From the NCBI GenBank assembly GCA_001599935.1, contig BCIJ01000024.1, forward strand, positions 186,001-250,000: a DNA stretch of 64,000 bases. The letters are read 5' to 3'. Below the pieces are notes generated by a model. That model was not told where the DNA came from and did no database searches. It saw nothing but the letters and a program-made list of their open reading frames with translations. This document shows positions 29,708 through 34,379 of the stretch, piece by piece; within the stretch, counting starts at the first letter, position 1; the number at the start of each line of letters is the position of its first letter. This stretch comes from Holtermannia corniformis. Taxonomy: Eukaryota > Basidiomycota > Tremellomycetes > Holtermanniales. The position numbers and the translations under genes were made by a program.

Positions 29708-32700
29708 CTAGATCTGACCGAGCGCAGCACCGTCGCCTCGGAGATCCGACCCGCAGGCCCACACGCGCCGTCCAGATGGGTCGGTGACAGCTTGGATAAT
29801 CTAAGACTGTCAGTTTTCGGTGGAGACTGCCGTGATGCGTCATGCCGAGGCGCACCTGCCCTCGTCCTGCCACAGATCGCGCCCAGCCGCTAGCGACGTG
29901 AACATCGTGGCCCATGTCTTCCTAGCGTCAGCACTATCGACAGCACTCGGCGCACGAGCACATACCTCTGAGCTGCTTCACAACATGCTGCGATACACCA
30001 TCTTCGATCCAGATCTCCGAGTTGATATCGCCGGCCGCCTTATCATCTCCCTCGCCTGCAGTCGGTAGACCTGCACTGATGCAGAAGCGAGGGGCGTCAA
30101 GCGCCGCTTGGGGAGTGAAGCCGCGAAGGGTGTTGAGAAGCACTTGAACGTGCCCTTGAGGCTGCATGAAGCCTGTACGGGTCAGAATACATCCGAGAGA
30201 CGGGACGACGTACCGCCCATGACACCATAGCTCATCAGCAGTTCATCTCCCGAAGTGACCATTGCCGGGATGATGGTGTGATACGGTCGTTTACCGCCCT
30301 TGAGCTCGTTTGGGTGTCCCTTTGTCAGCGAGAACCCTGAACCGCGATTCTGTAAAGTAAACCCGCAACCCTTGGGGATCGCACCAGTGCCAAACCCTGC
30401 AGCGGTTCAGCAACGCCAAGTACCCCCGATGTGATTAACCGGCATAGTTGCTGTTGTTCGAGGTGTCAGTCTTCCGGTGTAATGTCGCTGTCGCGACTTG
30501 CCTTGCGATAAAGCTACAAGCATTACCATCCTTATCCGCAGTCGACAGATAGATTGTATCCGAGCTCTGAACCGGCGAGCCGTGCCTCACGTCGGCGGTC
30601 GCTCTGGCTGGATCGATGAGTGCTGCACGTTTGCGCAGGTACTCCTATGGCGATACGTGTCATGGATGGACCGAAGCGCTTCTTACTGTAGGGTCGTACC
30701 TTGCTAAGGAGCTCGTCAACGGGGACGTGGACGACGTCGGGATCAGTCACGTAGTAGCGGGCTGCGAGGATGTCAACTCTGCTGTGATCCCTTGCTTTGA
30801 GTACACGTACAGTCTATGCGCGTGTCATCCCGGCGGATGGAGTTTCGGCCACATTGTCTTCACGTACCCGCAAAAGCAAGTCTGCACGCCGGCTTGGTTA
30901 GCTGCAGCCTCGCCACATTCTCCCAAACTCACCTCAAACTCTCGATCAAGATGTGTAGATATTCGGTCGAGTTGTGCGCAAGCTCCAAAATGTCCACGTC
31001 GTGTAGATCCTCATAAGCTTCGATGATCCCAAGCGCAATCAGCGCGGTGATGCCTTGGCCGTTCGGCGGGCACTACTTTGTCAGCAACTCCTATCTATCG
31101 AGTGAAGCCTGTCATTCACCTCCCACAGCGATACGCCCTTTGCGTCTGCGGTATCATGATGCCTAAAGTCATACTTGATAGGCTGTACAATCTCCGCTTG
31201 CATCTCTGCGAGATCTTTGAGCGTCATGACACCGCCTTTGGACTGCACGAGATCGACGATTGATTGGGCGATCCGACCGGTGTAGAAGCCGGCTGGACCG
31301 TGTTCGGCTACGGCTTCGAATGTTGCTGCCAGCTCGGGATGCTGCATGATGTGTGACGGGAGCGGGTGAGTCTGCGCTGGTGAGTTAACGACCCGTACGC
31401 CTTGTGGGCCGTTCACGGACACCGTCAGGCATCATCATTCTGGAGTGATCAGTCACGATATGTCAGGTTGACAGAAGTAATACATACTCGGCAGCATTGT
31501 CAGACGCAGTGTTGATCAGATTGGCCGATCTCTCCCACTAGGCTTGCTCAGCGCAACGACTACCGCTTCAGTTGACCACACCCACCGCATACGAGTTGAT
31601 CTCATGGGAAGGAACACCCTCCTTGGCCATGCGAATTGCAGGCGCTAGGATCTCTTGCATGCTCAGCTTACCGCTTCCAAACTCGTCAATCGTTTTGCAC
31701 CAGCCACTGGCGGCGCCTGGAACGGTGACCGAGTTGAGGTTAGTGAGCGGGATCTGCGCTTGTCAGTTGGCGTCTTGGAATCAGGGTACCACAGCCCCGA
31801 TGCACTACCCACTGCATCACCCGTGATGCCTTGCGATCGAAGATGGTCCATCGTCAGTGCCTTGGGCGACTTTCCAGAGCCATTGATCCCCTTGACCGTC
31901 TTGCTCGCAGCGTCGTAGAAGAGACAGAAGATGTCACCGCCGATGCCTGTGATGTAGCATGAGCGTTGACCGAGCTGCTTGATGCTGTGACTAGCCTGTA
32001 CACGACGGTTCGGTCACGTTCATTGCTGCGGCTGTCGCGACCGCTGCATCGGCTGAATAGTTTGAGTTGGTCCAAGCGCGAGTGGGTGCCACCAAAGAAT
32101 TCACCGCGGATATCCTTCTGCGTATCCGTATCCGCGGCCGCGGATATCCGTGTTTTTGTATCCGTATCCGTTCCGTATCCGTATCCTGAGGATCAAGAAT
32201 CACGGATATCCTTGTGTATCCCTGTGTATCCTTTTATGTATATCTTGTCTAATATCAGAGATTGAGACGTATTACTCAAGGGTAACATTCAGGCCAGTGC
32301 AGTGCACCTGGAACACACTTTAGATACAACCTAACATGTCAATTAAGACGTGCGGATACGCAGTATCCGTGATCCGCATGATATCCTTCCGATCCTTGCC
32401 TTGGATCCATGATCCTTGAGTCACATGATTGCGATCCTTCTGATCCTTTCACATGCTTTTTCGCGGATCATCACGGAAATACCTCCACTTTTGTTACGTA
32501 ACGCCAAATCGCGGATATCCGCCGCGATTTTTTTGGGTGCCACCAACCTGCATTGCCACCTTTGTTGAGAATCTCGATACCGGCTTGGCAAGCTAGCTAG
32601 TACGACATAAGCATCTCGATACTTTATCCATGTACGCACCGGTTGGGTCGCAGCTACCGCGCCCTTGGCCGAGAAGACGGTTGAGCGCCTGGATGCAAAG

Positions 32701-32759
32701 TGGGTGAACTGCGGGTTGTGCGATGGGTGCACCGTGGACCAGTCGATTGCGTTGGGCAT
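29708..32759 (-). CDS. gamma-glutamyltransferase family protein
   Basis: Ntn-hydrolase that transfers or hydrolyses gamma-glutamyl groups, normally self-cleaved into two subunits. Start at 32759 ([15 protein letters not shown]). Motifs in order: [26 protein letters not shown] across two introns, [73 protein letters not shown], the nucleophile context [20 protein letters not shown] (Thr codon at 30555-30557), [20 protein letters not shown], and the C-terminal DPRSDGA-like stretch [13 protein letters not shown]. No signal peptide or membrane helix at the N-terminus, resembling the soluble bacterial-like branch rather than animal GGT. The intron at 32053-32547 contains an inserted element. Divergent from RPS23 across 362 bp. 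Confidence 0.9.
32083..32546. mobile_element. 438-bp inserted element with 13-bp target duplication, inside a GGT intron
   Basis: The 13-mer TGGGTGCCACCAA occurs at 32083-32095 and again at 32534-32546. Between them are 438 bp rich in GGATATCC, GTATCCG and GGATCC words; GCGGATATCC lies near both ends (32106-32115 and 32511-32520), the right copy extending to the palindrome GCGGATATCCGC. Removing the element and one duplicate copy turns the 495-nt intron into 44 nt, the usual size here. No open frame of note, so it is non-autonomous. The T run before the right duplicate is on the wrong side for a conventional poly-A in either orientation. Confidence 0.75.
32106..32229. repeat. degenerate GTATCC/GGATATCC tandem repeat
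   Basis: Part of the inserted element. Runs of the six-base word GTATCC(G), interspersed with GGATATCC and the palindrome CCGCGGCCGCGG, give overlapping inverted repeats. Related words (GGATCC, TGATCC) continue less densely at 32350-32470. Confidence 0.7.
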
Positions 32760-33121: not shown

Positions 33122-34152
<1,031 letters not shown>

Positions 34153-34379
34153 ACTCTGGCATGGCGAGTTTGCTGGAGGAGGCACAGGCTTGTAGATCAC
34201 TCATGATGCACGGGTCTTGACATATCAGAGGGTGCATTCAGCGTTGCAGGAGATTGTTACGCAGTCGATGTAGGCAGCGACACATGAAACAAGGGTCGCG
34301 AGTGCCACACCAGCTACACACCCGTAAAGGCGCATCAGTGACCATAGCATCAGTGTAGTCTGAATCTCTGCACACCAAG

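Follow-up and report, generated by a model that had tools for sequence, protein, structure and literature searches.

The window analysed here is a stretch of 64,000 nucleotides of Holtermannia corniformis DNA (C24:186001-250000), and it was compared with the whole genome of 20.2 Mb in 55 contigs. It carries a gene for gamma-glutamyltransferase (GGT), readable via open exon pieces across most of the family model; joined by hand, these pieces match Gamma-glutamyltranspeptidase (PF01019) with an E-value of 1.5e-103. Among the best 120 of 7999 relatives of the protein, Kwoniella, Cryptococcus and other Tremellomycetes rank first, with an identity of 70% at most. The GGT gene is adjoined at positions 33300-34155 of the plus strand by a gene with short introns, which, reading by eye, we take to encode ribosomal protein uS12 (S23).

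One of the GGT introns harbours an inserted element (Table 1). The initial annotation had described it as a non-autonomous element sitting in this intron, and such a reading holds: when the element and one copy of its target duplication are removed, 44 nt remain, the donor and acceptor are intact and the minus-strand reading frame is kept. The claim of a standard intron size of 44 nt is true only roughly, given that the GGT introns placed by script (several could not be placed) measure approximately 41-55 nt, and one joined by eye would measure 36 nt.

Table 1. Coordinates of the host gene, the inserted element and its parts (positions within the window)
Feature	Position	Strand	Remarks
Gamma-glutamyltransferase gene	29964..32759	-	extent covered by the exon pieces; ATG start chosen by eye
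GGT intron	32053..32547	-	GT..AG; 495 nt, or 44 nt once the element is removed
Non-autonomous hAT element, 443 bp	32093..32535	+	starts CAAAG, finishes TTTG; 431-bp relative at C12:5460-5890
8-bp target-site duplication GGTGCCAC, left copy	32085..32092	.	in register with the common ends
8-bp target-site duplication GGTGCCAC, right copy	32536..32543	.	in register with the common ends
13-bp repeat TGGGTGCCACCAA, left copy	32083..32095	.	TG + 8-bp duplication + CAA
13-bp repeat TGGGTGCCACCAA, right copy	32534..32546	.	exact match to the left copy
Left terminal inverted repeat, 23 bp	32093..32115	+	matches the right repeat at 19/23 positions
Right terminal inverted repeat, 23 bp	32513..32535	-	partner of the left repeat
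Left subterminal repeats (GGATATCC, GTATCCGTATCC)	32106..32234	+	putative transposase-binding sites, by inference
Element right end	32404..32535	+	91.7% identity to the C12 relative

The element is short, bounded by imperfect terminal inverted repeats and a duplication, and, as had been proposed, devoid of coding capacity: of the 11 overlapping open frames with at least 40 aa, 10 were searched against Pfam, and none matched a family at E 0.01. Nor is it single-copy. A 464-bp query made of the element and its flanks found at least ten places in the genome, itself included (all such counts being lower bounds), with matches in C16 and C12 (two pieces each) and shorter matches to the ends in C21 (two), C8, C39 and C28. 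The terminal-repeat pattern, with up to three mismatches allowed, occurs at 27 places genome-wide, while the reversed control pattern occurs at none. These places resolve into 12 two-ended elements and three members with one end found (C15, C16 and C18). Flanking repeats recur in the relatives: an exact 8-bp duplication lies next to CAAA/TTTG in 10 of the 12 two-ended elements (C3, C4, C8, C10, C12, C13, the first in C21, C24, C28 and C39), and the remaining two (C2 and the second in C21) have a duplication of 9 bp.

At least three copies are short, namely those of the window, C12 and C16, the last being incomplete. High copy number at uniform size, which is typical of MITEs, was therefore not found, and with three short copies, itself a lower bound, the element is not a high-copy MITE. 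The C12 relative sits, approximately 5 kb from a contig end, in a long coiled-coil-like frame, which it disrupts. It provides a second reconstructed empty site, since subtraction of the 431 bp and one 8-bp copy yields a continuous coiled-coil frame, the repeat there being judged by eye. The suggestion that the family tolerates residence in introns has a single case in its favour, the GGT intron; the only other short copy that is complete was found within a coding frame. The C16 copy holds a 661-bp LTR-like insert (C16:132264-132924, TGTGACG..CGTGACA, with GAGAC on both sides), and the genome searches found no 3' part of this copy. Inserts of similar appearance were seen by eye in the C21 copies. 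Large family copies of 10-16 kb (C8:344088-356654, C39:90970-107251 and C21:97487-107556), several of them with long runs of N, have probably been swollen by nested inserts.

The low copy number and the diverged left end might suggest that the window element arose by decay or rearrangement, for example by a deletion in place, and never moved as such. Against this, the C16 copy shares its interior (96% over 176 bp and 94% over 95 bp), which means that the form has been copied, and the window element retains its two ends and its duplication intact. For the stretch 32280-32420, the C16 copy was the only match beyond the element itself genome-wide at E 1 or better. Such a remnant origin we regard as improbable.

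The length of the target duplication deserves a separate comment. A 13-bp direct repeat had been reported around a 438-bp insert, and the repeat is indeed present and exact. Within the window there are six pairs of exact 13-mers spaced 20-600 nt apart, this one included, and two of the other five lie within the element. As a target duplication, however, the 13 bp do not stand: the TG of the repeat is also the last two bases of the element and its CAA is also the first three. The matches to the 464-bp query mostly begin or end within the 13-bp repeat, which indicates that the boundary first reported was off, and alignment in register with the common family ends gives an insert of 443 bp and a duplication of 8 bp. 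One could still argue that the true duplication is 13 bp (12-13 bp in the short copies) and that the element is of another type. When matches between flank and element end are counted naively, the flanking repeat measures 13 bp in the window copy and 12 bp in the C12 copy, whereas the ten large elements have 8-10 bp. The extra bases (CAA.. and ..TG) are, however, the ends common to the family at unrelated loci, and in register both short copies have 8 bp. We therefore rejected the longer duplication, to which we give very little credence. In both complete short copies, CAA directly follows the 8-bp duplication (32544-32546 in the window), and it does so in none of the ten large elements; these are the same letters that open the element. 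Because of this observation, the exact length of the duplication is slightly in doubt.

An equally slight chance is left to the possibility that the insertion itself made the intron, as introners do. The two resemble each other in that the element lies in an intron and is probably a non-autonomous DNA element; in the excerpted text of PMC9860276, terminal inverted repeats and duplications of 3-9 bp are described for some introner families, and an origin from non-autonomous transposons is presumed for many. Introners supply splice sites, whereas the window element does not: neither donor nor acceptor falls within the element or its duplication, and the host sequence without it still forms a full 44-nt GT-AG intron. 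For this reason, the introner origin was rejected; the location of the only other complete short copy, in a coding frame, also speaks against it. Finally, that the intron grew by slippage and the flanking repeats arose by chance, as the short internal repeats might suggest, can practically be dismissed in view of the terminal inverted repeats, the exact 8-bp duplication, the relatives elsewhere with the same anatomy, the 27 places against none for the control and the motif GCGGATATCC, whose four occurrences in the window all fall inside the element (mean in shuffled sequence, 0.09).

An autonomous partner was also sought; the same genome contains relatives that code for a transposase and have related ends. 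The hAT dimerisation domain (PF05699) was found at nine places. Six lie inside two-ended elements (C4, C8, C10, C13, C28 and C39), another, in C15, adjoins the single known end of a one-ended member, and the two in C23 and C33 were not assigned to the family. By their end sequences, the members form subfamilies A (C2, C3, C4, C10, C13, C15, C28 and C39) and B (C8, C18 and two in C21). The C10 copy (C10:186127-191232, 5106 bp) can be read, through 14 GT-AG introns chosen by hand while viewing the sequence, as a transposase of 1060 aa with no stop. This model matches PF05699 with an E-value of 1.7e-12. Hermes is a hAT transposase with a solved structure, and the C-terminal region of the model matches it (E 1.5e-4), solely over residues 952-1021. 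For the DDE catalytic residues, candidate motifs were noted by eye. Among 8000 candidates sharing the most words with the transposase there was a single weak match (P0001, E 6.4e-7) and no close relative; a second search returned none among 139 candidates. The family thus combines 8-bp duplications, short terminal inverted repeats and a transposase with the dimerisation domain, all features of hAT elements, and we infer that one of the elements bearing PF05699 is the partner of the window element.

Which subfamily may have served as the helper can be judged from the ends. The right 61 bp of the window element agree with B (C8 copy) at 54/61 positions and with A (C10 copy) at 45/61; the left 60 bp, compared without gaps, show no clear preference (37/60 to B and 36/60 to A). 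The C12 relative is nearer to B at both ends (53/60 and 55/61) than to A (45/60 and 44/61). This likeness of the right end, together with the fit of C12, makes B the likely helper moving the window element in trans. The coding regions of B are largely N, and no intact B transposase was seen there. Past the terminal repeat, the left end agrees poorly with both subfamilies, and the helper may have been another one, or one since lost.

Overall, we are confident that the window element is a Ds1-like non-autonomous hAT element residing in a GGT intron, probably moved in trans by a resident hAT subfamily. The superfamily, hAT, is already known; what is new is at most a family or a family member, and the initial description of an undescribed small transposon family can be upheld to that extent only. 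As its anatomy shows, a short non-coding hAT element entered a 44-nt intron 12 nt deep and duplicated 8 bp of target, presumably by cut-and-paste with a hAT transposase supplied from another place in the genome, for which subfamily B is the best candidate. The sites that the transposase probably recognises are the imperfect terminal repeat (CAAA..GCGGATATCC) and two subterminal words, GGATATCC and GTATCC; binding to these words is suggested by analogy with the hexamers bound by the Ac transposase and with the repeats of Kat1. The insertion was probably tolerated because donor and acceptor are intact outside the insert, as is the acceptor side of the intron. The predicted fold of the 495-nt intron has a z-score of -3.88, and none of 100 shuffles was as stable. 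It pairs both element ends; in the pre-mRNA, these ends and the near-palindromic duplication may pair with each other, looping out the element and bringing the donor near the acceptor. In the same predicted fold, the donor GT is likewise base-paired, and this could impede splicing. Throughout, we assume that the 495-nt intron is spliced.

Adjoining this core finding is another interesting part, namely the clusters of a palindromic word nearly private to the family in the introns of its own transposase gene. The C10 element contains 16 GGATATCC sites: three near each end, one past the stop codon, nine in introns and none in exons of the one transposase model built. The density amounts to 9.6 per kb in introns (938 bp) and to zero in exons (3180 bp). 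Random placement would put all nine sites in introns with a probability of 1.7e-6, a figure that ignores codon constraint and clustering and relates to introns picked while viewing the sequence. Intron 4 carries a near-perfect palindrome of nearly 60 nt (fold z -8.0). Genome-wide, 17 of 17 GCGGATATCCGC sites and 42 of 45 AAGGATATCCGC sites lie in family members, the extents of the three one-ended members being assumed in these counts, and, among the matches listed for GGATATCCNNGGAT, all 44 (22 per strand) are in two-ended members. By eye, the three AAGGATATCCGC sites outside the family fall in two apparent coding frames and in one apparent intron of a transporter-like gene. In the latter case (C6:696631), the short apparent intron holds AAGGATATCCGC with complementary arms, and no hAT copy was recognised there by eye. 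GGATATCC is thus nearly private to the hAT family of the window element.

Subfamilies A (C10) and B (C8) are 75.6% identical in the exons of their comparable 3' part. Introns 9, 11 and 13 contain 5 to 9 GGAT/ATCC words in both, introns 10, 12 and 14 contain none in either, and, by eye, intron 3 is motif-rich and introns 1 and 2 are weak in both; exact GGATATCC is missing from introns 3 and 13 of B. The assignment of introns as rich or free agrees between A and B in seven clear cases (Fisher P 0.029, with classes set post hoc and outside introns 4 to 8, which were not comparable). In the readable parts of the A copies, length differs between copies for 6 of the 13 introns compared (2 to 14), and in four of these the step is 10 bp, i.e., approximately one helical turn: introns 3 (60/70), 5 (68/78), 13 (171/181) and 14 (41/51). 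The other two are introns 2 (49/50) and 9 (68/84). Intron 14 varies by a different, motif-free 10-bp unit, so general slippage can explain part of this variation. Among eight introns folded, five motif-rich ones (four from A and one from B) gave z-scores of -1.8 to -8.0 and three motif-free ones of -0.7 to -0.8, a stability that is partly expected since GGATATCC is self-complementary. As a speculation that we consider rather doubtful, the family may use GGATATCC both at its ends and in its transposase introns, where the clusters would be maintained while turning over largely in 10-bp steps. They might act as transposase-binding sites for self-repression or tethering, or as hairpins that fold introns down to approximately 44 nt, and the same property might let short derivatives live in host introns such as that of GGT. 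If the clusters are functional, the introns of a transposase would be an unexpected site of self-regulation. Titles and abstract openings of open-licence PMC articles yielded nothing on motifs of the transposase-binding type in transposase introns, nor on this family.

Among known systems, the maize element Ds1 of the Ac/Ds group (hAT) offers the closest model. In the excerpted part of PMC3260210, Ds1 is described as approximately 400 bp long, with 8-bp duplications and 331 copies in maize; it has little in common with the autonomous element beyond the terminal and a few subterminal repeats, its interior being non-homologous, and AAACGG hexamers bind the Ac transposase. The importance of both terminal and subterminal repeats is likewise stated for Kat1 in the excerpt of PMC4763223. 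To judge from these excerpts, the window element resembles Ds1 in its size, its 8-bp duplications, its kinship to the autonomous element at the ends only and an interior that is common to its short copies and non-homologous to that element. It differs in having 3 short copies versus 331, in its terminal repeat and subterminal word and in that its mobility is putative. Nearer in taxonomy, the accessible portion of PMC9713403 reports non-autonomous MITEs from Dioszegia hungarica with 8-bp duplications, maybe related to hAT, for which it mentions no autonomous copy detected. By description, these are comparable with the window element in their duplications, their presumed link to hAT and their basidiomycete yeast host. 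While the MITEs of D. hungarica were reported there without a helper, transposase-coding relatives with related ends, and hence candidate helpers, are resident here. The H. corniformis locus thus provides a clean example of a hAT derivative in a minimal fungal intron, accompanied by candidate helper transposons in the same genome.
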